NCBI GenBank assembly: GCA_028284865.1
Contig: JANQQV010000024.1
Location: 62,001-126,000 of the forward strand
Direction: 5' to 3'
From: Rhodothermales bacterium
GTDB taxonomy: Bacteria > Bacteroidota > Rhodothermia > Rhodothermales > UBA10348
Length of the DNA: 64,000 nt
In this document: one piece after another, positions 8,846-25,101 of the stretch
Position numbering within the stretch: position 1 is the first letter of the stretch
Layout of the letters: each line of letters begins with the position of its first letter
The notes under the pieces: generated by a model
The model's database searches: none
What the model was told of the DNA's origin: nothing
Seen by the model: only the letters and a program-made list of their open reading frames with translations
Made by a program: the position numbers and the translations under genes

Positions 8846-9340
8846 ATGTTGAATTGGTTGAAATCCCATTGGGTTATACCATTTTCGGTCATGTTGATCG
8901 TTGGGGTATTCGCACATTTGCTTATCCCTTCTCTTGAAGAAGAGAGACGCAGCCTCATGACCGGAAGATGGTATGAACCCGATAGTCATACTCTAATTAC
9001 CTTCTTTGACGGATCGCCGGTGAGTCCTTATGAGCGATGTCGTGTCGGATATGATGTTGTTATCGATCCTGTTTATGAGGCCCCATGGCCCGCTCGGTGC
9101 GGATGTGCAGATTCACGAGATGTAGCCAACTCTGAAACCTTGTTCAGTTTTGATTTTACCTGCAAAGGTTCCACTGAGTACAGGACGATCTACTTTGACA
9201 TTGAAGTCGATTCTGAAGAGTATTTTTTCCGAGTTGAATCTGGAGTTACGGATGACGTCACTGAACGACCTGGCGGTCCGATAGAATCTGGTTCGATATT
9301 TTACAGACTTGATCTTGATGAGATGGGTAATGATCAATGA
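8846..9340 (+). CDS. Hypothetical single-pass membrane/exported protein
   Basis: Unrecognised protein of about 164 residues. After a short basic N-terminus (MLNWLKSHW) comes a hydrophobic helix (VIPFSVMLIVGVFAHLLI), then an extracytoplasmic domain rich in acidic and aromatic residues with several Cys (RCRVGYD-type region, RCGCADS, FTCKG) that could form disulfides. I take the ATG at 8846; a TTG-started extension from 8798 is less likely. Its stop overlaps the next gene by 4 nt (ATGA), so it is co-translated with the SUMF1-like lipoprotein. Codons are more A/T-rich than in the genes after 11.6 kb, in keeping with acquired cargo. Confidence 0.65.
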   Translation: MLNWLKSHWVIPFSVMLIVGVFAHLLIPSLEEERRSLMTGRWYEPDSHTLITFFDGSPVSPYERCRVGYDVVIDPVYEAPWPARCGCADSRDVANSETLFSFDFTCKGSTEYRTIYFDIEVDSEEYFFRVESGVTDDVTERPGGPIESGSIFYRLDLDEMGNDQ

Positions 9341-10632
9341 GCAAAGCCGATATCTACTTGATCGCAGTGTTGGCTATTGGCCTCGCGAGCTGCTCTGAGC
9401 CCATTGATCCGGATCTGTTAGATCGTTCTAATCAAATGGAGCTCCTTTATGATCAGAAGAAACTTGACGAGCGACAGGAATTAGTCGGACTGCATTCCAA
9501 ATGGATTGAAGGTCAAGATGTTTATGAACCGTTGCTGGACCTTTGGTTTAAATGGATACCCCCGGGGGCGTTTAGGTACGCCGCACATTGGGTTGTGATT
9601 ACTAAAGGGTATTGGTTATCAGAGACGGAGGTAGCTCAATACCAATGGCTACAATTTGCCGATTGTGGAGAAAAATATTGGAAGGGCCAATTTCGTGGTT
9701 CTCTTCTGCCGGCCTACAATGTGTCACCAGGTGATGCGAGGTGGATGGCAGGAGCATTGAATGCTGAGTATCACAGTGATCTAATAGATAATCCTGGCAG
9801 GTTTGATTTACCTACGGAAGCTGAATGGCTATGGGCTTCGCTTGGTCTTGCAAATCCCGTTACGCGTGATGCTGATATTCAGGAAATTGGGCAACAGACA
9901 ACTGCTGCTGAACTCTCGAGAATCGCAATTGGAACTGCTGTTGATCCAAAGCTTGTTTCAAACTTTGTTCGCGGAGCAACCCATTCAATGGATTACGCTA
10001 ACCTTGCTATGAAAAGGTTTGACCCGTCCGGTAACTATCACAGAATACGTGTCAATTGGCCTCCTCCTTTGCAGACAGTTAATTCTGGCGTTAGAAATGG
10101 GTACGGCTTGGCTCATATGGCAGACAATGTGTCGGAATGGACTCGCGACGTTTGGACTCGCAGTTTTCCATTCATAGCGGCTCAGGACTCGGAGAGTTGG
10201 ACTGACGACAAACTGAAGGAGCTTCTTGATCCCAGTATGTATCAAATTGCCAACGGGATGCTAATTCTCAACGACGATTTGAAGCGTGTTGCGGATGCAG
10301 TGGACGATGTCAGTGAAGTTCTTGATGGAAGAACAGTTGTTGATCCTGAAGTATTAAGCCGTGACGTAGACGAACCGGGTGGGACAGTCGCAAGGGGAGG
10401 AAGTATTTGGGGATACAATGAATCGTACTTAGGCCAAAGCCTTAGTAAAACCGTTTCGATTTTCTTCCGAGAGTCAAGTGAGAATGTGTCATGGATCCCG
10501 TTTGAGGGTGCCATGACCGGACTTAGATTGGCCAGATACCCAGCCTCGGAAAAAGAGCCGTATTTCTTTAACAAAGATGAGCCGTTGGGAGCGGGTGTGT
10601 GTTCAGGAGACATCAACTATTATGTCTGGTAG
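9337..10632 (+). CDS. SUMF1/FGE-fold lipoprotein
   Basis: The 431-residue product begins with a lipoprotein signal (IYLIAVLAIGLASC, lipobox Cys at 19). It then follows the formylglycine-generating-enzyme fold: WIPPGAF near 68-74, GYWLSETEVAQYQW, LPTEAEWLWAS, NVSEWTRDVW, RGGSIWGY and a closing TGLRLARY. The pair of catalytic Cys that true FGE carries in the RGGS-to-GFR segment is absent, so it is not expected to make formylglycine. Comparable folds serve as binding or scaffold proteins (for example GldK-type lipoproteins). It is translationally coupled to the upstream membrane protein. A/T-rich codons and the island position suggest transfer. Function unknown. Confidence 0.75.
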   Translation: MSKADIYLIAVLAIGLASCSEPIDPDLLDRSNQMELLYDQKKLDERQELVGLHSKWIEGQDVYEPLLDLWFKWIPPGAFRYAAHWVVITKGYWLSETEVAQYQWLQFADCGEKYWKGQFRGSLLPAYNVSPGDARWMAGALNAEYHSDLIDNPGRFDLPTEAEWLWASLGLANPVTRDADIQEIGQQTTAAELSRIAIGTAVDPKLVSNFVRGATHSMDYANLAMKRFDPSGNYHRIRVNWPPPLQTVNSGVRNGYGLAHMADNVSEWTRDVWTRSFPFIAAQDSESWTDDKLKELLDPSMYQIANGMLILNDDLKRVADAVDDVSEVLDGRTVVDPEVLSRDVDEPGGTVARGGSIWGYNESYLGQSLSKTVSIFFRESSENVSWIPFEGAMTGLRLARYPASEKEPYFFNKDEPLGAGVCSGDINYYVW

Positions 10633-13519: not shown

Positions 13520-14155
13520 CTACTGTTCATCATTAACCAGGAACAGCGCGGTCTCATCGGACTTGCCCGCTCCAAGTCCGAGTTGCTGATAGACGAGATT
13601 ACCGCCCGCATCCAGAACGGAAATGATGTTGGAATGCGAGACTTCGCCATCGGGTGTCCGACGATAGCTGACCCCCAGGAGAGCCGCCATTTCGCGCACC
13701 TGATCATCGGGGGCTCGAAGCAGGATCCAACGCTCCGAGAGGTTTTTGTCTTCCAAGAATGCAGACAGGACTTCCGGGGAATCACGCTCAGGATCCAATG
13801 ACAACAGAACGATCCTGGCCGCGAAGTCAGCCTGATTCAGTCGGGTTTCGATCCGCTTCAGGTCCGCCAGAATCACGGGACACGACACCTGGCAGGAGGT
13901 ATAGGTCATGGCGACCAGCACCGGAACGCCGGCCAGGGACGCAAGCGATCGCTCTGATCCAGTGTGGTCTGTCCACGGGGTGTCCAGTTGGTACAAGGAC
14001 ATGGCCCCGAGGGCAGGCTCGACGGGGGGAGGGATGGTGGTATGCCCTGCATGCTCATTTGCGGGCTTGTCGTGCCCTGCATGCGCATTTTCGTCATGCA
14101 TTTCGTCAGCGCAACCGACGCACAGCACGAGCAGGAGTACGAGAAGTCGTGTCAT
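13520..14155 (-). CDS. SCO1/SenC family copper chaperone lipoprotein
   Basis: SCO proteins deliver copper to CuA or related centres, or act as thiol reductases for them. The 211-residue product has a lipobox (VLCVGC, Cys15), a His/Glu-rich linker with repeated HAGH (residues 20-40) that may bind metal, and a thioredoxin fold with the copper pair C88-x3-C92 (TSCQVSCP) and the third ligand H174 (VSHSNIISV). The N-terminal linker is unusual and resembles copper-binding tails. Its ATG overlaps the stop of the SUMF1-like gene by 4 nt, placing it as the third gene of the nirK operon. A role in loading NirK or the CuA subunit across the way is likely. Confidence 0.9.
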   Translation of the reverse strand: MTRLLVLLLVLCVGCADEMHDENAHAGHDKPANEHAGHTTIPPPVEPALGAMSLYQLDTPWTDHTGSERSLASLAGVPVLVAMTYTSCQVSCPVILADLKRIETRLNQADFAARIVLLSLDPERDSPEVLSAFLEDKNLSERWILLRAPDDQVREMAALLGVSYRRTPDGEVSHSNIISVLDAGGNLVYQQLGLGAGKSDETALFLVNDEQ

Positions 14156-14958
14156 GATGGTGGAGGCAGGGAGCGGGCGATACGAAAGCCGAGACGACTG
14201 CCCGCGTAGGATGCAGACAATCCACCCCGGTACGAGAAGCGGAGGAATGCGGCATAGTCCGTGAAGTCCGATGCGCCGATCACGCCGGCGCCACAGAACA
14301 GCTTGCGGTCAAGTCCGGAGTCTCCCCGGCTTTCTCCGGTTACCAGCGCAGAATTGAAGTCTGATGTCCATTCCCATACCAGCCCGTGCATGTCCCTGAT
14401 ACCCCAGTAGTTGGCAGGGCTGTTTCCGGTCAGTCCCAGTGGGCCACCGCCAGGGGCGTTGGTGGCAGACAGTACCCCGGCAAGGAACTCCGGATCAGAC
14501 CGGCCGTCTGCCGATGTGGAGCTGGCTCCGGCCACGTACTCCCATTCCGCCACCGTGGGCAGTCTGGCATCGGCCCATCGCGCGTACGCTTGGGCCGCAA
14601 ACCATGAGACATTGGTCACAGGTTGTTCGGGATGGGCCACGCCTAGTGTTGAATCGGATGCCCAATGGTGCAAGTAGGCCTCGCTGGCAAACAGTGGACT
14701 GACATTGGAGCGTCGCCACTTGGGGTTTTCCATGACGAAGTCCAGAAACTGCTGATTCGTGACCGGGTCAACGGCCATGAGGAAAGCGTCGACAGAAATC
14801 CGGGACGGTTCATCCGGAGCGCGATACAGCGCGCCGTACGTTCCGCCTTCGACTTTCACCATGGAAGGGTGGACATCGGCTTGCTGCGCACACGTTGGCC
14901 GGGGCAGTCCCGGAAGGACTGACCCGGCCAACAGGAATATGACAATGAGTACGCGCAA
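14152..14958 (-). CDS. SUMF1/FGE-fold protein of the nirK operon
   Basis: An exported protein with the formylglycine-generating-enzyme fold: KVEGGTYGALY, a DPVTNQQFLDFV segment, EQPVTNVSWFAAQAYARWA, RLPTVAEWEYVAGA, DMHGLVWEWTSDF and SYRGG...GSRLGFRIAR. The two catalytic Cys of true FGE are missing from the last segment, so modification of sulfatases is unlikely. The longest frame runs back to 15111 through nirK; I prefer a TTG start at 14958, 5 nt after the nirK stop, which opens a signal peptide (LRVLIVIFLLAGSVLPG, then CAQQ). Its position between nirK and SCO suggests a part in NirK assembly or electron transfer. The start codon is the weakest part of the call. Confidence 0.8.
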   Translation of the reverse strand: MRVLIVIFLLAGSVLPGLPRPTCAQQADVHPSMVKVEGGTYGALYRAPDEPSRISVDAFLMAVDPVTNQQFLDFVMENPKWRRSNVSPLFASEAYLHHWASDSTLGVAHPEQPVTNVSWFAAQAYARWADARLPTVAEWEYVAGASSTSADGRSDPEFLAGVLSATNAPGGGPLGLTGNSPANYWGIRDMHGLVWEWTSDFNSALVTGESRGDSGLDRKLFCGAGVIGASDFTDYAAFLRFSYRGGLSASYAGSRLGFRIARSLPPPS

Positions 14959-14962
14959 GCCG

Positions 14963-16384
14963 TCAATGGCTGCTGCGTACGCGGGTGACCGTCGAAGGTG
15001 TGACTTCAGCGCCGTCGTTGCCCCAGGACTTGTTGATGAAGGTGAGCACATTGGCCACCTCCTCATCCGACAGACGAACGGCAGGCATGACGCCGTTGTA
15101 GTCCACGCCATTCACCGTGATAGGTCCGCTCAATCCGTTGATTAGTGCGCGGATGGCACGGTCCGTGTCCTCAAGCAGGTAGTCCGAACCGGCCAGGGGA
15201 GGGAACGCACCGGCAAGGCCCTGCCCTTCCGGCTGGTGGCAAGCTGCACAGTTTGCAGCATAGATCCTTGCGCCGGCATCCATGCGTTCAGCGATGGTCT
15301 GAGCAGTCGGAGGCTCGGGTGCGCCACCAGGGATTTCCTGGATGGCACCACCCTCAGGCAGGTAAACCGTCTCTTCCTGCTTTCCGGAGTACATGTCCAG
15401 ATCTTCCTCGCCGGTGACGGTCAGCATACCGAGAGCACCTTTGTTGAATGCGCGAAAAATGGAATGGTCGACCAGAATGAAGGTACCGGGTACGTCAACC
15501 GTGAATTCGACCATGGCTGATCCACCGGCTGGAACGAGCGTCGTCTGCACATTCTCCTGGTTCGCTACCGTGCCGCCTTCCGTGTACACCAGGTCAAATA
15601 TCTCGCCGATCACGTGGAAGGAAGAGACCAGGTTGGGACCACCGTTGCCGATGTAAAGCCGAACCCGATCGCCGACTTCGGCCGTGATGGCATTGTCGCC
15701 GGTCATGGCGCCGACCGACCCGTTGAACACCACATAGTCGGCATCTTCATCCACCGCCTTCTGCATGTCGAAGGGCTGCAGACCGGGTTCGCCATACTCT
15801 CCGCCAGTGTAGAATTCACTCTGCATCACATAATACTCCTTGTCCACAGGAGGCAGCCCTTCTTTGGGCTCAACAAGGATGAGGCCGTACATGCCATTTG
15901 CAACGTGCATGCCCACAGGAGCCGTGGCGCAGTGGTAAACATACAGGCCTGGATTCGCAGCCGTGAATGAGAACGTGGATCCCGTTCCCGGTGCCGTGAA
16001 TGAGGATGCTGCCCCACCGCCCGGACCGGTAACGGCGTGCAGGTCGATGTTGTGCGGCATCTTGGAATCAGGGTGGTTGTTCAGGTGGAATTCCACAAAG
16101 TCCCCTTCGCGAACACGGATGAACTTGCCAGGGACCTCTCCGCCGAACGTCCAGAATGTGTATTCGACACCATCGGCAAGGCGCTTGACCTCTTCGGTGG
16201 TTTCGAGTTCAATGATCACCTTGGTAGGGTGATTGCGCGTGATGGCAGCCGGGACGGCTGGAGCGTAAGTCAGGACAGCCTGTTCTTCCCCGCTGATCTG
16301 GGGGTCGGACTGGCAACCGGTCAGAAGAAAGGAACCGGAAACCAGTATCAGTAAAACGAACGATGTAAAGGTTGATCGATTCAT
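14963..16384 (-). CDS. nirK: Copper nitrite reductase fused to cytochrome c
   Basis: NirK reduces nitrite to nitric oxide in the periplasm. I start at the ATG at 16384 because it opens a lipoprotein signal (LTGC, Cys24); the longer frame has no signal. The first cupredoxin holds type 1 copper ligands H111, C152, H160 and M165 and type 2 ligands H116 and H151, with catalytic Asp114. The second cupredoxin gives catalytic His257 (SSFHVIG) and the third type 2 ligand H307 (VDHSIF). Residues ~365-455 are a class I cytochrome c with CAACH (C379-C382-H383) and axial Met433, making a three-domain enzyme that can take electrons directly through heme c. It heads an operon with SUMF1-like and SCO genes and is divergent from the NO-reductase-like operon. 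Confidence 0.95.
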
Positions 16385-16689
16385 GGCGGGTCTTTGTTGG
16401 ATTTGATGGTTTTGGCCCAATGGTATTCCGGGTGGCAGCATTGACCTAACAGAACACTCCCTCAGAGCCGGGTAGGGGAAAATCCCACATCGGCCGGGCA
16501 TGCCACCCTGTCACCCCATGAAATGGGCCAACAAGCACGATTACGGCACATTTACATGTTGAAAACCACCTCATTTGGGGAAAAATGCAGGTGTGAAGAT
16601 TATATATAGATTATAGACTCTTTTATCTTTTTTTGATTTCATGGTGTCGAATCGCGTGTCATCAAGTGCTATTGAAGAGGAGCATCCAC
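16385..16689. promoter_or_regulatory. Divergent control region between nirK and the NOR-like operon
   Basis: This 305-nt gap must hold the promoters of both denitrification operons. It is A/T-rich on the right side (16592-16640, with gattatatatagattatag). A short inverted repeat cccat-gaa-atggg sits at 16515-16527. I see no convincing FNR/NNR/DNR-type box (TTGAT-N4-ATCAA). A Shine-Dalgarno (gaggag, 16677-16682) lies before the GTG start at 16690. Only the layout is certain. Confidence 0.5.
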
Positions 16690-16839
16690 GTGGAACAGGA
16701 AGAAAAAAAACATCCGATCCAGAAGCTGATGGACAACCCATGGCTACTTCTGGTTCTGGGACTACTGGTCCCCATTCTTTCATACACGATCTGGGGATGG
16801 ATCGAGCTGGCCAATATGCCCCAGGCAACTCTACCGTAG
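16690..16839 (+). CDS. Heme-copper enzyme small subunit IIa
   Basis: A 49-residue protein: charged start (VEQEEKKHPIQKLMDNP) and one membrane helix (WLLLVLGLLVPILSYTIWGW). Size, single helix and position directly before a CuA subunit II match subunit IIa of ba3-type heme-copper enzymes (as in Thermus), which fills the place of the missing first helix of subunit II. I use the GTG at 16690, which has gaggag 7 nt upstream; an alternative start at 16633 would add residues unlike the family. It ends 9 nt before subunit II. Confidence 0.8.
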   Translation: MEQEEKKHPIQKLMDNPWLLLVLGLLVPILSYTIWGWIELANMPQATLP

Positions 16840-16848
16840 AGGGACGTC

Positions 16849-17373
16849 ATGAGTATACATCCACCACCAAAGGATTGGTTCAAGGGACCGGAAGGCGGAG
16901 AGCGGCTCTGGATCGGCGTCGGATTCGTCTGGTGCATGATCCTGTTCATGGCCATGCCATTCGCTCATTTCCGGGGCAACCAGAATTCAACAGGGGAATC
17001 GTACGAAACCACCCCTGAGGCTTTCATGGATCGCATTGAGCGTTTCGTGCAAGCCAACCAAGTGGGAGAGCTGGAGGGCATCCCCATTGTTGAACCTGCT
17101 CCTGGCAGCGACATCTATTTGATCGGGCAGATGTGGCGCTGGTATCCAGTCCTGAAGCTGGCGAAAGATCAGACGTATCGACTTCATGTATCGTCATATG
17201 ATCTTCAGCATGGGCTGTCGCTACTACCCATGAACATGAATTTCCAGATTCTGCCGGGATATGATCACGTCTTGACGATCACTCCCACTACACGAGGAGA
17301 GTTCAGTCTGGTATGCAATGAATTCTGTGGCATTGGTCATCACCTGATGACGGGCCGCATCATCGTCGAGTAG
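16849..17373 (+). CDS. CuA-containing subunit II of a heme-copper enzyme
   Basis: The electron-entry subunit: one N-terminal membrane helix (LWIGVGFVWCMILFMAMPFA, ~20-39) and a periplasmic cupredoxin with the binuclear CuA site. Ligands visible are H121 (LQHGLS), C156 and C160 with E158 (CNEFCGIGHHLM), H164 and M167. At 174 residues it has the compact size of B-type (ba3) subunit II. It would receive electrons from a cytochrome c or cupredoxin, possibly the heme c of the neighbouring NirK system, and pass them to subunit I. The SCO genes on both sides of the locus fit a need for CuA assembly. Confidence 0.93.
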   Translation: MSIHPPPKDWFKGPEGGERLWIGVGFVWCMILFMAMPFAHFRGNQNSTGESYETTPEAFMDRIERFVQANQVGELEGIPIVEPAPGSDIYLIGQMWRWYPVLKLAKDQTYRLHVSSYDLQHGLSLLPMNMNFQILPGYDHVLTITPTTRGEFSLVCNEFCGIGHHLMTGRIIVE

Positions 17374-17386
17374 GAGGATCATCATA

Positions 17387-19105
17387 ATGGGCAATTTTAT
17401 TTCTGATCGGTTCCGCACGTGCTCAACGACCGGATTACCGGTGTGTCTCAACGCACAGTTCTTCATCAAGGCAAATGCTGTATTTGCCGTCATTTTCTTA
17501 CTCGTTGGTGCCATTGGAGCCATTCTTCTCGCGTTGACGCGTTGGAGTGAGGTTCACCTGTTGAGCGACATCATGTATTACAGGGTCCTGACTCTGCATG
17601 GGATCAACATGCTCATCTTCTGGATCCTGTTTTTCGAGATAGCCGTTCTGTATTTCGCCTGTACCAGTCTGCTCAATGCCCGACTGGGTTCGAAGTGGGC
17701 GGCCTGGCTTTCGATCATCCTGATGGTCGTGGGAGCATTGCTGACCGACTGGGTCATTCTGACAGGGAAAGGGGATGTGTTGATGACCTCCTATCCTCCC
17801 ATGTTGGCTCACCCGATGTTCTATCTGGGAATGATCCTGGTGGCTGTGGGGACGTTGGTCGGGGTGATCGTCTTCTTCGTCACCCTCTATCAGGCCAAGC
17901 GGGACAGGACATACGAAGGGTCCATGCCACTCGTGACATTCGGAGCACTGGCAGCGGCAATCATTGCCGTGTTCACGCTGCTGCACGGTGCCATCGCGTT
18001 GGTACCAACGCTGACGTGGTCACTGGGATGGACACCCGAGCCCGACCCGGGCTGGTACCGACTGATGTGGTGGGCGCTGGGACACCCTGCACAACAGGTG
18101 AATCTGTGCGCCATGGTGGCGATCTGGTACTTCCTGGCCACCCTGACCACAGGTGCGAAGCCGCTCAACGAAACGGTTTCCCGGGCGGCATTCGTCCTGT
18201 ACATCCTGTTCATCAACGTGGCCTCTGCTCACCACCTGCTGGTTGATCCCGGCTTGAGCGCTTCGTGGAAGATCTGGAATACTTCCTACGTGATGTACCT
18301 GGCCGTGCTTGCTTCGCTCATCCACGGATTCACCGTACCAGCGTCGGTCGAGGTGGCTCAGCGACTCAAGGGGTATACGAAAGGACTGTTCGGTTGGCTG
18401 GCGAATGCGCCTTGGAAGGATCCCGGGTTCTCGGCATTCACGCTGTCCGCCTTGATTTTCGGGTTCATCGGTGGCATCACTGGTGTCACGATCGGGACTG
18501 AACAGATCAACATCCTGGCCCACAATACGATGCGTGTGCCCGGGCATTTCCATGCCACCGTCGTTGGAGGCACTACGCTGGCCTTCATGGGACTGACTTA
18601 CTACGTGGTACCTCTCATATTCCAGAGGGAATTCTACATGCGAGGGCTGGCCCGAGTACAGCCATATCTGTTTGCAGCTGGTATCACCATCATGTCGATC
18701 GGAATGTCGTTTGCAGGTTCCTACGGCGTTCCCAGACGGCACTACGACATTGACTTCACCGGTGCGGCTATTCCGGCCGGATTCGATGCAGGGGCCCACT
18801 TCATGATGGGCGTCATGGCCATCGGCGCAATCATCGCGTTCCTGGCCATGCTGCTGTTCATCCTGCTGGTTGTGGCAGCCGTGTTCTTCGGCAAATCGAA
18901 CAAGGAAACGGGCATGAATCCGTGGCAATCGCCAGAGGCCATGGCCCGTAACCGAGCCATCTACCTTCAGCGGGATGCGGCATACGAGAAAGTGACTCAT
19001 GGAACCAAGGGAACGATGGCGTTGGTCTTCATCCTCCTGATTTCCTTTGTCGTCTACTACTTCGCAAATTGGAATGCCCTCACCGATGTCTGGTTCGTCC
19101 GCTGA
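17387..19105 (+). CDS. Heme-copper subunit I, NO-reductase-like (eNOR-type), lacks active-site Tyr
   Basis: A polytopic membrane protein of 572 residues most like B-type (ba3) oxidases. It keeps the low-spin heme ligands H71 (LHGINML) and H389, the high-spin ligand H387 (VPGHFH), and the CuB ligands H233 (LGHP) and H282/H283 (AHHLLVDPG). In B-type oxygen reductases helix VI reads HPxVY, whose Tyr is cross-linked to the CuB His; here it is HPAQQ, with Q237 in that place. Loss of this Tyr is the mark of NO-reducing branches of the superfamily. With nirK next door I infer NO reduction to N2O. A strong aggagg precedes the ATG. Automated pipelines would probably call this a cytochrome c oxidase. 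Confidence 0.85.
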   Translation: MGNFISDRFRTCSTTGLPVCLNAQFFIKANAVFAVIFLLVGAIGAILLALTRWSEVHLLSDIMYYRVLTLHGINMLIFWILFFEIAVLYFACTSLLNARLGSKWAAWLSIILMVVGALLTDWVILTGKGDVLMTSYPPMLAHPMFYLGMILVAVGTLVGVIVFFVTLYQAKRDRTYEGSMPLVTFGALAAAIIAVFTLLHGAIALVPTLTWSLGWTPEPDPGWYRLMWWALGHPAQQVNLCAMVAIWYFLATLTTGAKPLNETVSRAAFVLYILFINVASAHHLLVDPGLSASWKIWNTSYVMYLAVLASLIHGFTVPASVEVAQRLKGYTKGLFGWLANAPWKDPGFSAFTLSALIFGFIGGITGVTIGTEQINILAHNTMRVPGHFHATVVGGTTLAFMGLTYYVVPLIFQREFYMRGLARVQPYLFAAGITIMSIGMSFAGSYGVPRRHYDIDFTGAAIPAGFDAGAHFMMGVMAIGAIIAFLAMLLFILLVVAAVFFGKSNKETGMNPWQSPEAMARNRAIYLQRDAAYEKVTHGTKGTMALVFILLISFVVYYFANWNALTDVWFVR

Positions 19106-19106
19106 C

Positions 19107-20039
19107 ATGGATACGCTGGATCGCATCCGGGAATTCATTTCCGGATGGCGTTTTCCAATCATCTTGATCTCGATGATCGGAAGCACGGTATTGCTGATGG
19201 GTGCGGTGCTTCTGATTCCATCGTCGGCCGGTCCTGCCTATGCGTTTGCTGAGGACTTCAAAGTCTTGTGTTTCGGATACGACCCAGCATCCGGTTCAAT
19301 GGAATGGGCCTACGTATGGATGTTTCTCGTCCAACCGCTGATCCTGGCCGGTTTGATGGCACTGGTGTGGCGGGATCCATTGACCCGAGCCGTTTCTGAG
19401 TCCCGAGCTGCGCTGCTGAAGACGGTGGCCGGTACGGGGTGCTTCGTAGTTGTTCTCGCGGCGATGGTCCCATTCATCCTGCAGCCGGACCCGGGTTTCG
19501 CATCGGAGTCATTTCCAGGCGAGCGCATCCGGACGTCTGTTCCGTCGGCGGCGTTCCAGTTGACCAACCAGCATGACCAGTCATTCGAGATGGCGTCCAC
19601 TCGCGGGCAGATCGTGGTGCTGACCGCGGTTTACGCCACGTGTGGGGATACGTGTCCCCAGATTCTCCAGCAGGTCAAACGGGCCGTAGGTGCGCTGTCA
19701 TCCGAGGAGCAGGAGCAGGTTACCGTTGTGACCCTTTCACTGGACCCGGAAACTGACACACCCGCAATGCTGACCATGATCGCCGAGCAGCACGGGCTTT
19801 CTTCCGACGTCTTCCAATTGCTGACTGGTGCTCCGGAGAAGGTGGATCGCATTCTGGATGACTACGGATTTCGAAGGTGGCGCAACGAACGCGGCATCAT
19901 CGAACATGCCAACCTGATCCATGTAATCGATCGTGAAGGGTTGATAGCCTATCGCCTCGCACTTGGAGACGTGCAGGCCGTCTGGCTGGAGGAAGCCATG
20001 AAGCAGTTGATTGCAGAGCCGGCACCGGTTACAGAATGA
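19107..20039 (+). CDS. Membrane-anchored SCO family protein with extra N-terminal domain
   Basis: Residues 1-125 form three hydrophobic segments (FPIILISMIGSTVLLMGAVLL; WAYVWMFLVQPLILAGLMAL; TGCFVVVLAAMVPFIL) with one Cys in FKVLCFGYDP between them, not a normal SCO anchor. The rest is an SCO thioredoxin fold with the copper pair C179-x3-C183 (ATCGDTCP) and H267 (HANLIHV). It would insert copper into the CuA or CuB site of the preceding enzyme. The start at 19107 follows the subunit I stop by 1 nt; an overlapping start at 19086 is possible. Its end overlaps the next gene by 4 nt. Confidence 0.88.
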   Translation: MDTLDRIREFISGWRFPIILISMIGSTVLLMGAVLLIPSSAGPAYAFAEDFKVLCFGYDPASGSMEWAYVWMFLVQPLILAGLMALVWRDPLTRAVSESRAALLKTVAGTGCFVVVLAAMVPFILQPDPGFASESFPGERIRTSVPSAAFQLTNQHDQSFEMASTRGQIVVLTAVYATCGDTCPQILQQVKRAVGALSSEEQEQVTVVTLSLDPETDTPAMLTMIAEQHGLSSDVFQLLTGAPEKVDRILDDYGFRRWRNERGIIEHANLIHVIDREGLIAYRLALGDVQAVWLEEAMKQLIAEPAPVTE

Positions 20040-22153
20040 GACAAGACCCACGTCCCATTCTTGATGATGAACGGAGGCCTGCGATCCAGATCGATCGTGT
20101 TGGAGCGGCACGTAATGACTCCCCTTTGCGAGGAAACGCTTTCTTCGAACGTCTGGAATCCCTGTTCTCGTGGGTGACCCAGCGGGTTGGGGCACGGATT
20201 CCAGAGTCGGCGAACCCGTTCGCCAGGGCAGGTGCTGTAGCAAATACCGCATTTGTCATTGCACTGGTCTCCGGCATACTGCTTCTTTTTTGGTATAGAC
20301 CAAGCGTCAATCTCGCATGGGCTTCGCTGGATGACATGGGGGGACTGGGGCAATTCATCCGTTCCATTCATCGCTACAGCTCGGATTTGGCCATGCTGTT
20401 TGCGTTGTTCCATGGCATCAAGACCGTGGCGGAACGCAAAGTGGGCGGGTCGAGGTGGCTTCCATTCCTTTCTGGGCTGGTACTGGTAGGCGCTCTTTGG
20501 CTGGATGGTTGGACGGGGTACTGGCTGGTCTGGGATGTTGGTGCCCAGAAAATCGCCATGAATACAGCGGCGCTTGTGGATCTGCTGCCCATCTTCCCTG
20601 ATCCACTGTCCCGGTCGTTCCTGACGAACGATGCTGTCAATTCGCTGCTGTTCTTCATCGTGTTCTTCATTCACATGTTGATCCCGGTGGCGTTTGCCAT
20701 ATTCCTGTGGGCCCACATCCTGCGGGTCAATCGCGCGCGGTTTTTCACAGGGCGTATACTCTCTTTCTGGTTGATTGGCAGCTTGAGTGTGCTGTCCCTT
20801 CTATTTCCTGCATTTTCCGGAGAGCCCGCCGACATGGCGCTCATTCTTGAGGGACTGGAGGGAGACTGGTGGTTCCTGGGGCCCATGACCGTTATCGAGC
20901 GGTTGGGAGGGAAGGCAATCTGGATGGTTTTTGGCGTGACGACGGTTGTACTGTTCACCGTTCCATGGTGGGCGCCCCGCCGGCGGGTAAAACCAACTGT
21001 CATTGACGCTTCTCGGTGCAACGGATGTCAGCAGTGTGTCCGTGATTGTCCGTTCAACGCCATCGACCTGATTCCGGATGAAGGCGTGCGCAGGGAGAGT
21101 CCATTCCATGCCCAAGTCAATCCTGCGCGGTGTGTTGGTTGTGGTACATGTGTTGGCTCCTGTGATTCGTCTGCTATCGACGCGCCCCGCCTGCCGGTGC
21201 TCGATGCCCGTCGCTTCCTGAACGCCGTATCGAAACACGAAAGCGATTCGCCGACCATGGTGGCCTTCCTGTGTGGTGCATCAGGTGCAGCGTCATTCGC
21301 AATTGGAGCAGACGGCACGTGCCCGGACCTCCCGGGGTATCGGGTCATTCCGGTGATGTGTACGGGTTGGGTACACATGCTGACGGTGGAACGAGCGCTC
21401 CGGCACGGTGCGGCCGGCGTGCTGATCGTGAGTTGTGGCCACGATGCTCCGTGCAGGTTTTCGGTTCAATGGACGGCTGAGCGGCTATCCGGGGATCGCG
21501 GCCCCGAGTTGCGTTCAGATCATGTTGATGCATCGCGCATCCGGCACTTTTCTTCCGGGCCAGGAGGAAAACGGGAGATCATGGAGCAGGCTGCCCTTTT
21601 CCGCAGCCGATGTGTGGGGAATGATCCTCAGTCCACCACGGTGGAGACGCCGTTGCCCCACACGCCATTGTCGCGGGTCAGGAGCATGGCAGCGGGATTG
21701 ATGGTGAGTTGTGTGTTGGGTGCCATGGTGGTGGTGTTGTCGAATCGGGATCTCCTTTTACCCCGTGTGGAAGGCGCCCGGCTGGTAGTGTCGTTCAAGC
21801 TGTCTGGCCAGGTCCTTGAGACTGGCGAAGTGGTCGATGATGACAACGCGCTATCCCACATGCGACGGGTTCGACCCGTTTCCAGGGAGCGCAGTCCCGT
21901 CAACATGGTGGTGATGGTTGACGGAGAGGTAGTGTCCGAGGCCCCCTACGCGCCGGGTGGAATTTTCAATGATGGCGAATCCGTAGCCATTGAGGAATTC
22001 GTACTGGATCCCGGAACGCATCATGTGCAGATTCGGATAGCGGACGAACCCGACGATGAGAGTCCCTTCGTGTACGATGCCGACATCTCTTTTGACGCAT
22101 CCCGGAGGCGTGTCATCCGATTCGACACGATATCCGGATTCAAACTGCATTGA
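20036..22153 (+). CDS. Cytochrome b / 2x[4Fe-4S] ferredoxin / MvhD-like fusion protein
   Basis: A 705-residue multidomain redox protein. Residues ~65-240 are a cytochrome b N-terminal module with two bis-His heme pairs on helices B and D (H112/H126 and H213/H227, 14 apart). Two further helices follow, then two [4Fe-4S] motifs (C328/331/334/338 and C366/369/372/376). Residues ~405-500 resemble the MvhD/FlpD delta subunit with five Cys (C413, C429, C442, C467, C473) that could hold a [2Fe-2S] cluster. A final helix near 560 precedes a beta-rich, probably extracytoplasmic C-terminus. It ends the NOR-like operon, so it may link the quinone pool or a cytoplasmic donor to NO reduction. Electron bifurcation is possible but unproven. 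Confidence 0.85.
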   Translation: MRQDPRPILDDERRPAIQIDRVGAARNDSPLRGNAFFERLESLFSWVTQRVGARIPESANPFARAGAVANTAFVIALVSGILLLFWYRPSVNLAWASLDDMGGLGQFIRSIHRYSSDLAMLFALFHGIKTVAERKVGGSRWLPFLSGLVLVGALWLDGWTGYWLVWDVGAQKIAMNTAALVDLLPIFPDPLSRSFLTNDAVNSLLFFIVFFIHMLIPVAFAIFLWAHILRVNRARFFTGRILSFWLIGSLSVLSLLFPAFSGEPADMALILEGLEGDWWFLGPMTVIERLGGKAIWMVFGVTTVVLFTVPWWAPRRRVKPTVIDASRCNGCQQCVRDCPFNAIDLIPDEGVRRESPFHAQVNPARCVGCGTCVGSCDSSAIDAPRLPVLDARRFLNAVSKHESDSPTMVAFLCGASGAASFAIGADGTCPDLPGYRVIPVMCTGWVHMLTVERALRHGAAGVLIVSCGHDAPCRFSVQWTAERLSGDRGPELRSDHVDASRIRHFSSGPGGKREIMEQAALFRSRCVGNDPQSTTVETPLPHTPLSRVRSMAAGLMVSCVLGAMVVVLSNRDLLLPRVEGARLVVSFKLSGQVLETGEVVDDDNALSHMRRVRPVSRERSPVNMVVMVDGEVVSEAPYAPGGIFNDGESVAIEEFVLDPGTHHVQIRIADEPDDESPFVYDADISFDASRRRVIRFDTISGFKLH

Positions 22154-22217: not shown

Positions 22218-23318
22218 TCAAAGACTATCCATGGTGAACAGACGGGCGAACCGTGCTTGAAATGGTTGGCTCAAGATGAGTCGGGCGAACAAGCGCCGAA
22301 TCGGATACAGACGACCGGGTCGACCCACAAACATGTTGAGCTCGGATCGCCTCGCTGCCTTCCGGAATGATTTCTTTCGCACGCGCTCATAGTGTGAGAG
22401 GGCTGCAGGTGATGCACCATTCGCAAACCACTCTGCCAGCCAATCGGCGTCCATCCAGCCGAGATTCATTCCCTGACCTCCGATCGGGCTGATCACGTGG
22501 GGCGGGTCGCCCGCCAGGGCGGCGCGGCCCACGACGAAACGCTCGGCCTCGAATCGCTCGGCGGTGAAAGCCGATACCATGGAGCACGCGTCCAGGGGAA
22601 GCTCTTCTCCGGTTCGCCTCGCTACGGCCTTGCTCAACATCGACTGTAGCTGCGAATCCTCTTTGGCATCAGACGGATTGGCCACCCGGGCTACCCATCG
22701 GCGCGTTCGTCCGGGAAGTGGGAAGCACTCAACGACTCCTTCCCGATGCAAGTAGATCGCTGCGTCTTCTCCAAAGACGGTCGTATCCGGAAAATCGCCC
22801 ATGACGTAGTGCTCGTCGTAAGAGGCTCCGTCAAACGGTATTCCGAGCAGGTCCCTAACCGTACTGCGACGGCCATCGCACGCTATGACCCAGTCAGCTT
22901 GCTCACCGTCAATGTTGACATAGCTGTCAGATTGCTCGAGCGCGGTCACATCGATGCCGCGTCGAACAGGTTCGCCCAGCGACTCGAATAACGCTTCAAG
23001 TACGGATTCCGTCACATGCTGGGGGACTGCCAGCACGAAAGGGAAGGGGGGTGGCAGGGCTTCGAAAGAAAGCACTCCGAGCGGTCTTCCCTCCGCAAAT
23101 CCTTGGCCGCGTGCGACGCGAATGCCACGATCAATCAACGCATCGGCAACGCCCAGGGCATGAAGTCGCCTGAGTGCGGGCGGGTGAATGCCGATGGATC
23201 GCGAATGTGTCGAGCGCGCGACGCGACGCTCCAGAATCGTACAGTCGACTCCGTGCTTGCGCAGCAGGCACCCCAGGTACAGCCCGACGGGCCCGGCGCC
23301 GACGATGATCACTCTCAC
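22218..23318 (-). CDS. FAD-dependent monooxygenase (UbiH/PHBH fold)
   Basis: An aromatic-ring hydroxylase-type flavoprotein of 366 residues: Rossmann motif VIIVGAGPVGLYLG at the start, ERRVARSTHSRSIGIH, the DG motif (VIACDGRRSTVRDLLG) and the second FAD motif (GRAALAGDPPHVISPIGGQG) with NLG after it. The longest frame starts at 23375, but the GTG at 23318 overlaps the methyltransferase stop by 4 nt (GTGA) and places the FAD motif at the N-terminus as usual. In the srs system of Streptomyces the third enzyme, a flavoprotein hydroxylase, oxidises the methylated resorcinol ring to a quinone. The same role is inferred here. Confidence 0.88.
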   Translation of the reverse strand: MRVIIVGAGPVGLYLGCLLRKHGVDCTILERRVARSTHSRSIGIHPPALRRLHALGVADALIDRGIRVARGQGFAEGRPLGVLSFEALPPPFPFVLAVPQHVTESVLEALFESLGEPVRRGIDVTALEQSDSYVNIDGEQADWVIACDGRRSTVRDLLGIPFDGASYDEHYVMGDFPDTTVFGEDAAIYLHREGVVECFPLPGRTRRWVARVANPSDAKEDSQLQSMLSKAVARRTGEELPLDACSMVSAFTAERFEAERFVVGRAALAGDPPHVISPIGGQGMNLGWMDADWLAEWFANGASPAALSHYERVRKKSFRKAARRSELNMFVGRPGRLYPIRRLFARLILSQPFQARFARLFTMDSL

Positions 23319-24013
23319 GACGATCCCCGGTGTGTGAGTAGCAGCCGAAAAGGCATCTTCTTCTCCGCACGCCACCCCGCAGGCAATCGGCCGTCAAGAT
23401 CATCAGGATGCCAGGAGCGCCGAATGGAACGCAGCCCGTCGGTCATAATGAACGATCCTCGAGCGGCGAGTCCGACGGGGATGAAGCTGAGCCATGCCAG
23501 GTCATCCCGGCAGATATCGTTGTGTAGGGCCAGACTGCGCGACAGCGTAGCAGAATCCTCAAGCAGGACGTTTAAGGCAGGATCGTCGAGGTGATGAAGC
23601 ACATGGTTGGACACCACGATGTCGAACGACAAGCCCTGGTCGACCAGCTCAGAGGAGTGGATCGCGTGATAGCTGATTCGGTCGGATTCGGTGCGCGCCA
23701 ACGCATAGTCGATGGCCCGCTTGTCCGGGTCAATGCCAGTCAGTGAGACCGATTTATTCTCAGCGCGCGACATGTCGTCGATCAGTCGCAGCAAATCGCC
23801 TCCACCACACCCGATATCGAGAATCGTGGTGGTCCGATCCGGGGCCATCAGAGGGGAAAGATGACTGTTGTACAGCGATCGCCAGCGTGCCAGCCAGGGA
23901 TTCAGTCTGGAAAACCAGTCGTAGGTTCGGTGTAGACCTCGCTCATCACAGTCCGGATCGTCCATGATTTCGATCAGATCCGTGTTGCGTGATGTGAGGA
24001 AAAGTCTCGGCAT
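23315..24013 (-). CDS. SAM-dependent methyltransferase
   Basis: Class I methyltransferase of 232 residues. Motif I is ILDIGCGGGDLLRL at ~64-77, followed by the acidic end of strand 2 (TGIDPD) and motif post (VVSNHVLHHLDD). Genes of this kind beside a type III polyketide synthase methylate the phenolic ring. Its ATG overlaps the polyketide synthase stop by 1 nt (TGATG) and its stop overlaps the monooxygenase start, so the three are one transcript. Confidence 0.9.
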   Translation of the reverse strand: MPRLFLTSRNTDLIEIMDDPDCDERGLHRTYDWFSRLNPWLARWRSLYNSHLSPLMAPDRTTTILDIGCGGGDLLRLIDDMSRAENKSVSLTGIDPDKRAIDYALARTESDRISYHAIHSSELVDQGLSFDIVVSNHVLHHLDDPALNVLLEDSATLSRSLALHNDICRDDLAWLSFIPVGLAARGSFIMTDGLRSIRRSWHPDDLDGRLPAGWRAEKKMPFRLLLTHRGSS

Positions 24014-25101
24014 CAGATGCGTTCAAACAGACCTGTTTCAACTGTCAGCCCCGGGCCGAACGCCATCGCCATCGCTTTCTCTCCCGATGAGGCATTAGCC
24101 AGCGATTCCTTGAGGACGAACAGGATCGTGGCGCTGCTCATGTTACCGTACTCAGCGAGAACCGAGCGGGACGCCGTCAGCGGTGCATCGTCAATGTCCA
24201 GTCCGTTACGGACCTTGTCCAGGATGGCTCGGCCACCCGGATGAACCGCCCAGTGGGTGATGTCGTCACGGGTCCATCCGGATTGTTCAAGGACTGGGTC
24301 GACGACTCCACCGATGTTGGCTTCCAGGATTTTGGGTACGTACGTCGACAAGACCATCTTGAATCCCTTGTCTCCTATCGTCCAGGCCATGTCTGATTCG
24401 CTGTCAGGAGCGATGGTGGAGTCCATGGACTCGAATCGGAAAGCCGCTCCAGATGCCGGAGGCTGGCCCGTGACTAGAGCCGCACTTGCTCCGTCAGCAA
24501 ATACCGAGAAGGCGAGGATGTCGTCTACTTCTTCCGATGGTTCGAGGTGCAGCGAGCACAGCTCGAGGCAAACCACGAGGACCACGGCATTTGGATCCTC
24601 GGCGCAAAAGGCCCGAGCCATGTTCAGGGCCGGGAAGGCTGCATAGCACCCCATGAATCCAACGTGGACGCGTCGCACGGAGGGCGCTAGGCCGAGGTCC
24701 TTGACGAGATGGAAGTCGGGTCCGGGGGCGTAAAAACCCGTGCACGAGGCGGTGATGACATGGGTGACATCGTCAGCACTGAATCCGTCTGCGGCGTCGA
24801 GCACGCTACGTCCAGCCGCTTTGAACAACGGTCGGGCATGCGCCATGTAGTGATCATTCCGCGTTCCCGTCGTAGGCGACCGGAAGCTTCCCTGATCATC
24901 GATGAAGTCGCCTCCTCCGTCCCGCAGATCAGTGATCACGCTGTGGCGTTTGTCGATGCCAGAGTGGGCGTAGATCCGATGGACCAATTTGGAAGCCCGG
25001 CTCCCTGGCGTCAACGATGCGAGCATGACCTGAGCCGCTTCATCCTGTGAATAGGACGTCTTAGGCACGGCGGTCTGGATGGCGTGGAGATAGGCTGGCA
25101 C
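24013..25101 (-). CDS. Type III polyketide synthase
   Basis: Chalcone-synthase-fold enzyme of 362 residues that extends an acyl-CoA with malonyl-CoA units and cyclises it to a resorcinol or pyrone. The catalytic triad is visible: C152 (VGFMGCYAAFPAL), H287 (WAVHPGG) and N320 (EYGNMSSAT). The neighbouring GFG-type loop reads AFGPGLTVETGLF at the C-terminus. With methyltransferase and FAD hydroxylase downstream in overlapping frames it forms an srsABC-like set for methylated alkylresorcinols or alkylquinones. The acyl starter cannot be read from sequence. Being first in the operon, it sets the promoter upstream of 25101. Confidence 0.93.
   Translation of the reverse strand: MPAYLHAIQTAVPKTSYSQDEAAQVMLASLTPGSRASKLVHRIYAHSGIDKRHSVITDLRDGGGDFIDDQGSFRSPTTGTRNDHYMAHARPLFKAAGRSVLDAADGFSADDVTHVITASCTGFYAPGPDFHLVKDLGLAPSVRRVHVGFMGCYAAFPALNMARAFCAEDPNAVVLVVCLELCSLHLEPSEEVDDILAFSVFADGASAALVTGQPPASGAAFRFESMDSTIAPDSESDMAWTIGDKGFKMVLSTYVPKILEANIGGVVDPVLEQSGWTRDDITHWAVHPGGRAILDKVRNGLDIDDAPLTASRSVLAEYGNMSSATILFVLKESLANASSGEKAMAMAFGPGLTVETGLFERI

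Follow-up and report, generated by a model that had tools for sequence, protein, structure and literature searches.

A probable eNOR-type nitric oxide reductase encoded beside nirK in a Rhodothermales genome, with a conserved cytochrome b/Fe-S/MvhD neighbor

The window, a stretch of 64,000 nucleotides from a Rhodothermales bacterium, encodes at positions 17387-19105 (+) a 572-aa heme-copper subunit I that, judging from sequence comparison, is very probably an eNOR, i.e., a NO reductase derived from the B-type heme-copper oxidases. Gln replaces the cross-linked Tyr of oxygen reductases in this protein, and since the literature recognizes eNOR by Gln at that site, we consider it a new member of an already known family. 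The likely operon also contains a conserved gene for a 705-aa protein, which most likely serves the eNOR clade represented in the window as a dedicated redox partner or as a reductase for cofactor loading.

Ligands and active site of subunit I

The 572-codon reading frame is preceded by a good Shine-Dalgarno sequence (GTAGGAGGATCATCATAATG), and its product was classified by profile match, ligand mapping, phylogeny, and an AlphaFold2 model. It matched Pfam COX1 with 233 bits, and none of the NCBIfam oxidase models reached its cutoff, the top one being CtaD (80 bits versus 671 required). The nearest solved structures were the ba3 oxidase of Thermus thermophilus and the B-type oxidase 7deg; the PDB yielded no structure of an eNOR. 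The AlphaFold2 model (pLDDT 87.6) adopted an oxidase fold throughout and matched ba3 with a Z-score of ~36 and an rmsd of 2.2-2.8; the two systems share this fold, the ligand positions, and subunits I, II, and IIa.

The His ligands H72, H233, H282, H283, H384, and H386 of ba3 correspond to H71, H233, H282, H283, H387, and H389 of the window protein. Checking of the reading frame, this mapping, and an alignment of 55 homologues, in which eight positions (the six His, Q236, and Q237) were invariant, bore out the coordinates and the six B-type ligands given in an earlier note on this DNA. That note had also read HPAQQ in place of HPxVY, and the reading proved exact: in the helix-VI motif H233-P-A-Q236-Q237 (18083-18097, +; invariant in 55/55 homologues), Q237 aligned without gaps to Y237, the cross-linked Tyr of ba3, and Q236 aligned to V236. 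From its helix position and numbering, both shared with the H233/Y237 pair, Q237 is predicted to sit at the Tyr site of ba3.

Beyond the exchange of Tyr237 and Val236 for Gln, the window protein differs from ba3 by Asn for Trp239, Val for Tyr244, His for Thr312, and Asn for Asp372. Along the K path, Y248, S310, and T316 are kept, while T312, Y244, and S155 are replaced by His, Val, and Gly, respectively. Residues that are invariant in the clade and unlike those of ba3 include E84, Y224, N239, Y272, H313 (T312 of the ba3 K path), and N375 (D372 in ba3). A Tyr supplied by helix VII, in the manner of C-type enzymes, was considered and rejected: the sole invariant Tyr of that helix is Y272, and its position ten residues before H282 probably leaves it too far off to form a bond with a CuB His. 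The ba3 oxidases as nearest structures, the CuA partner, and the lack of any norB family match place the protein outside cNOR and qNOR, and Gln237 in place of the helix-VI cross-linked Tyr sets it apart from the B-type oxygen reductases.

Homologues, phylogeny, and family assignment

The proteins of 296 genomes of the same phylum were searched without reference to the motif, which recovered homologues at 41-80% identity in 11 other genomes, all with GHxxQQ(V/I)N, as well as B-type homologues at 30-37% identity, for which VY was found in 18/18 examined. As every homologue above 40% identity carries QQ and the more distant B-type proteins examined carry VY, the QQ pair is not a chance occurrence. 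A broader scan using one genome per species yielded at least 473 relatives, and more than ten phyla are represented among the best 80; the clade includes members of the Myxococcota, Verrucomicrobiota, Planctomycetota, Gemmatimonadota, Spirochaetota, and others. Gln was present in all of these best 80 of at least 473 relatives. One search pattern contained QQ[VI]N, which makes this conservation partly circular; the motif-blind protein search is independent of it. As the earlier note anticipated, automated annotation is likely misleading here, with relatives annotated as "cbb3-type cytochrome c oxidase subunit I."

In a maximum-likelihood tree of 41 rows, built without bNOR, sNOR, gNOR, or nNOR references and with 37 rows masked at the helix-VI motif, all Gln proteins grouped in one clade (support 100/99), every member of which carries GHxxQQ(V/I)N. 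The phylogeny, suggested as a check in the earlier note, thus placed the window protein in the Gln clade and apart from the Tyr-bearing B-type oxygen reductases, which grouped separately (97/99). Homologues from Thermus plasmids and a probable R. marinus eNOR also belong to the Gln clade. The Thermus thermophilus plasmid eNORs (L005:11983-13668, +; L007:4983-6665, +) have GHFK where GHFH is found elsewhere, the second low-spin heme ligand (H389 in the window protein) being Lys, and they adjoin a multicopper oxidase/NirK-like gene as well as DUF542 and Rrf2 genes.

In 2008, Hemp and Gennis reportedly proposed the eNOR family for archaea, and the purified eNOR came from Rhodothermus marinus. The window protein shares with eNOR the Gln in place of the active-site Tyr, all six His ligands, a subunit II with CuA encoded just upstream, B-family ancestry, and an association with nirK, which eNOR shows in some genomes. 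In contrast, its identity to the probable R. marinus eNOR is just ~42%, and the R. marinus-like locus lacks the SCO and cytochrome b/Fe-S/MvhD proteins found in the window operon. According to PMC11388526, eNOR has been biochemically characterized; the earlier note was right to invoke this family but out of date in calling it proposed.

Published residues at the Tyr site are Gln in eNOR, Tyr in oxygen reductases, Asn in sNOR/CuANor, Asp in gNOR, and Glu in cNOR/qNOR (PMC8756737, Table A4). Membership in another B-related NOR family is extremely unlikely: although bNOR, sNOR, gNOR, and nNOR are all B-family relatives (PMC11388526) and several such families have cupredoxin second subunits (PMC8756737), Gln stands where bNOR, sNOR, or gNOR would carry Asn or Asp. 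It is also very unlikely that the protein is an oxygen reductase working without the cross-linked Tyr, such as a low-activity or unusual B-type oxidase. Its fold and every metal ligand are indeed of the B type, and the K path is partly retained (Y248, S310, and T316), but Tyr237 is the canonical B-family position, Gln is invariant throughout the clade and is the hallmark of a characterized NO reductase family, the genome already encodes A-type and cbb3 oxidases, and nirK adjoins the operon. The Gln residue, the tree, and this genome context all support the earlier proposal of an eNOR-like NO reductase beside nirK, which we thus retain as the probable identity. Since Tyr-bearing B-type oxidases also reduce some NO (PMC8780969), activity alone would be insufficient proof of its role.

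Operon, nirK, and the predicted pathway

Directly upstream of subunit I lies the gene for the cupredoxin subunit II (16849-17373, +), assigned by its motif and homologues. It carries the CuA motif CNEFCGIGHHLM (C156, C160, H164, and M167; pattern C-x3-C-x3-H-x2-M) with an upstream His, H121, within DLQHG, and a homologue adjoins subunit I in 78/80 loci (the best 80 of at least 473 relatives). Preceding it is a 49-aa subunit IIa with one membrane helix (16690-16839, +; GTG start after GAGGAG), an ORF shorter than the size limit of the first ORF list and assigned by conservation: a homologue was found in 79 of these best 80 loci and preceded subunit II wherever the rows were inspected. Subunit I is followed by a SCO copper chaperone that has additional membrane helices at its N terminus (19107-20039, +, or 19047-20039 from the listed TTG start; SCO1-SenC, 75 bits), whose homologue occurs in 69 of the same 80 loci. 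The gaps between the plus-strand genes for IIa, II, I, SCO, and the 705-aa protein are short or the genes overlap, suggesting that they form one operon. An FNR-like box was sought, with no match above chance.

On the opposite strand, a fusion of the copper nitrite reductase NirK to cytochrome c is encoded at 14963-16501 (-), with TIGR02376 (360 bits versus a cutoff of 296), Cytochrom_C, and a CAACH motif; its start is probably at 16384, with a lipoprotein-like signal. A second SCO protein is encoded downstream of nirK (13520-14155, -; PF02630, 68 bits), and between the two lies a gene for a FGE/SUMF1-like domain protein (14152-15111, -; PF03781, 111 bits), the ORF of which overlaps its neighbors on the nirK and SCO side. 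Another FGE/SUMF1-like protein is encoded at 9337-10632 (+), and one may guess that these proteins take part in copper enzyme maturation. Beside the operon, positions 22218-25101 (-) contain a small cluster encoding a type III polyketide synthase, a methyltransferase, and a FAD monooxygenase.

The genome (97.7% complete) was searched with profiles and contains three COX1-family proteins, namely, an A-type oxidase (HPAVY), CcoN (664 bits, over the cutoff), and the window subunit I. As the other heme-copper enzymes are of the A and cbb3 types, subunit I is this genome's only candidate for an NO reductase of the heme-copper type, the type that the search covered. The genome also encodes a clade II NosZ (G000:C9:182866-184665, L140; 935 bits versus a cutoff of 625), so that N2O consumption by the organism is possible. 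Neither NarG nor NapA was detected in the genome, and the two molybdopterin oxidoreductases found were FdhF/YdeP-like and PhsA/DMSO-reductase-like, respectively. From this gene content, the likely pathway leads from nitrite to NO through NirK, to N2O through subunit I, and to N2 through NosZ. The earlier note's description of a nitrite-to-N2O locus thus holds for the locus but not for the genome, for which the clade II NosZ makes N2 the likely end product.

We infer NO turnover, an electron route, and energy conservation for this enzyme as follows. Electrons would enter via CuA of subunit II and travel by way of the low-spin heme (H71/H389) to the site formed by the high-spin heme (H387) and CuB (H233/H282/H283). 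There, two NO would be converted to N2O, with Q236 and Q237 occupying the positions of the oxidase Val and cross-linked Tyr. NirK-cytochrome c, transcribed divergently, would supply NO from nitrite, SCO proteins would load CuA, and NosZ, encoded elsewhere in the genome, would complete the reduction to N2. Comparable arrangements have been described. For example, Ardenticatena maritima carries eNOR and nirK in one operon and NosZ in its genome (PMC4653789), although this organism belongs to the Chloroflexota and has NapA, unlike the window genome. Furthermore, respiration of nitrite to N2O is known from a verrucomicrobial isolate, for which NirK and eNOR are the predicted enzymes of the pathway (PMC13274419).

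The same NO reductase could serve NO detoxification instead of coupled denitrification, a difference in role and not in identity that we regard as possible but on the unlikely side. The lack of a detected NarG or NapA in the genome agrees with such a role, as do the description of R. marinus as strictly aerobic (PMC3035238), although it probably has a homologue, and the failure to find nirK within ~8-10 kb of that probable homologue. However, nirK with its cytochrome c is adjacent to the operon in the window and nosZ is present in the genome, so that the nitrite-to-N2 pathway is complete, which argues for the coupled denitrification preferred above.

A conserved fifth gene and a CuB-less companion

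The earlier note correctly listed the CuA subunit, subunit IIa, two SCO genes, and nirK but overlooked a conserved fifth gene at 20036-22153 (+), the start of which overlaps the SCO stop codon (ATGA). Its 705-aa product comprises a cytochrome b module, two [4Fe-4S] sites, a FlpD/MvhD domain, a last membrane helix, and a periplasmic beta domain. The membrane part matched the b6 profile (E-value of 2e-37) and the cytochrome b of bc1 (Z-score of 23), with four invariant His in two pairs (112/126 and 213/227), the two members of each pair having the bc1 spacing of 14. The two [4Fe-4S] are accounted for by eight invariant Cys and resemble the C-terminal ferredoxin of HdrA, and the C-terminal domain of the 705-aa protein had no match in Pfam, FixG_C included. 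Apparent SCO-cytochrome b gene fusions at high-GC loci were rejected, the reading frames being different.

A homologue of the 705-aa protein was present in 67/80 loci (the best 80 of at least 473 relatives), and in 55 of those 67 it lay at most 2.2 kb downstream in the same orientation; most of the 13 loci without it stop near subunit I. In the 296 genomes of the same phylum, the protein occurred in 7, exactly the 7 that carry the window eNOR clade, and in 0/289 of the others, being absent from all 5 genomes with a Rhodothermus-like eNOR. We found no earlier description of such a dedicated partner in the eNOR literature searched, and it seems to be new.

CcoG/RdxA is a copper reductase with two [4Fe-4S] on the cytoplasmic side, a last membrane helix, and a periplasmic beta domain. 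The 705-aa protein is similar to it in these three features of architecture only; it differs by its cytochrome b membrane part, four heme ligands, added MvhD domain, and lack of a FixG_C match. Given the adjoining SCO gene, a CcoG-like role in copper loading is conceivable; we lean slightly toward electron input.

Relatives of the window locus revealed a further component. A separate COX1-like gene of ~480 aa, outside subunit I, was found in 46/80 loci (the best 80 of at least 473), usually directly upstream of subunit II and with the motif GGHxLQ; such genes also occur at L038:7357-8811 (+) and L041:10191-11603 (-). The 37 readable copies retain the heme His and the helix-VI His, whereas the helix-VII pair (H282/H283) is lost in 37/37, replaced nearly always by x-Pro; the Tyr/Gln site is variable. 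No such companion occurs at the window locus or among the three COX1-family matches of the genome. The eNOR literature searched contained no description of this CuB-less protein, which likewise seems to be new.

It is conceivable, though doubtful, that the window eNOR clade is a distinct variant with an operon-encoded membrane redox partner feeding electrons or loading metal, and that the CuB-less paralogue joins the complex in many relatives. As tentatively pictured, this partner would have its cytochrome b6 module fused to an HdrA-type ferredoxin and a MvhD domain that face the cytoplasm and would expose its beta domain outside.

Because most pipelines call these enzymes cytochrome oxidase, denitrification in Rhodothermales and in the many other phyla with the window clade is undercounted as regards NO loss and N2O production. 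The helix-VI QQ and the fifth gene offer a simple marker of this clade, and the cytochrome b/Fe-S/MvhD partner is a testable lead on the supply of electrons or metal to these enzymes. Should the operon-encoded membrane partner prove real, some eNORs would be wired to a route beyond cytochrome c alone.
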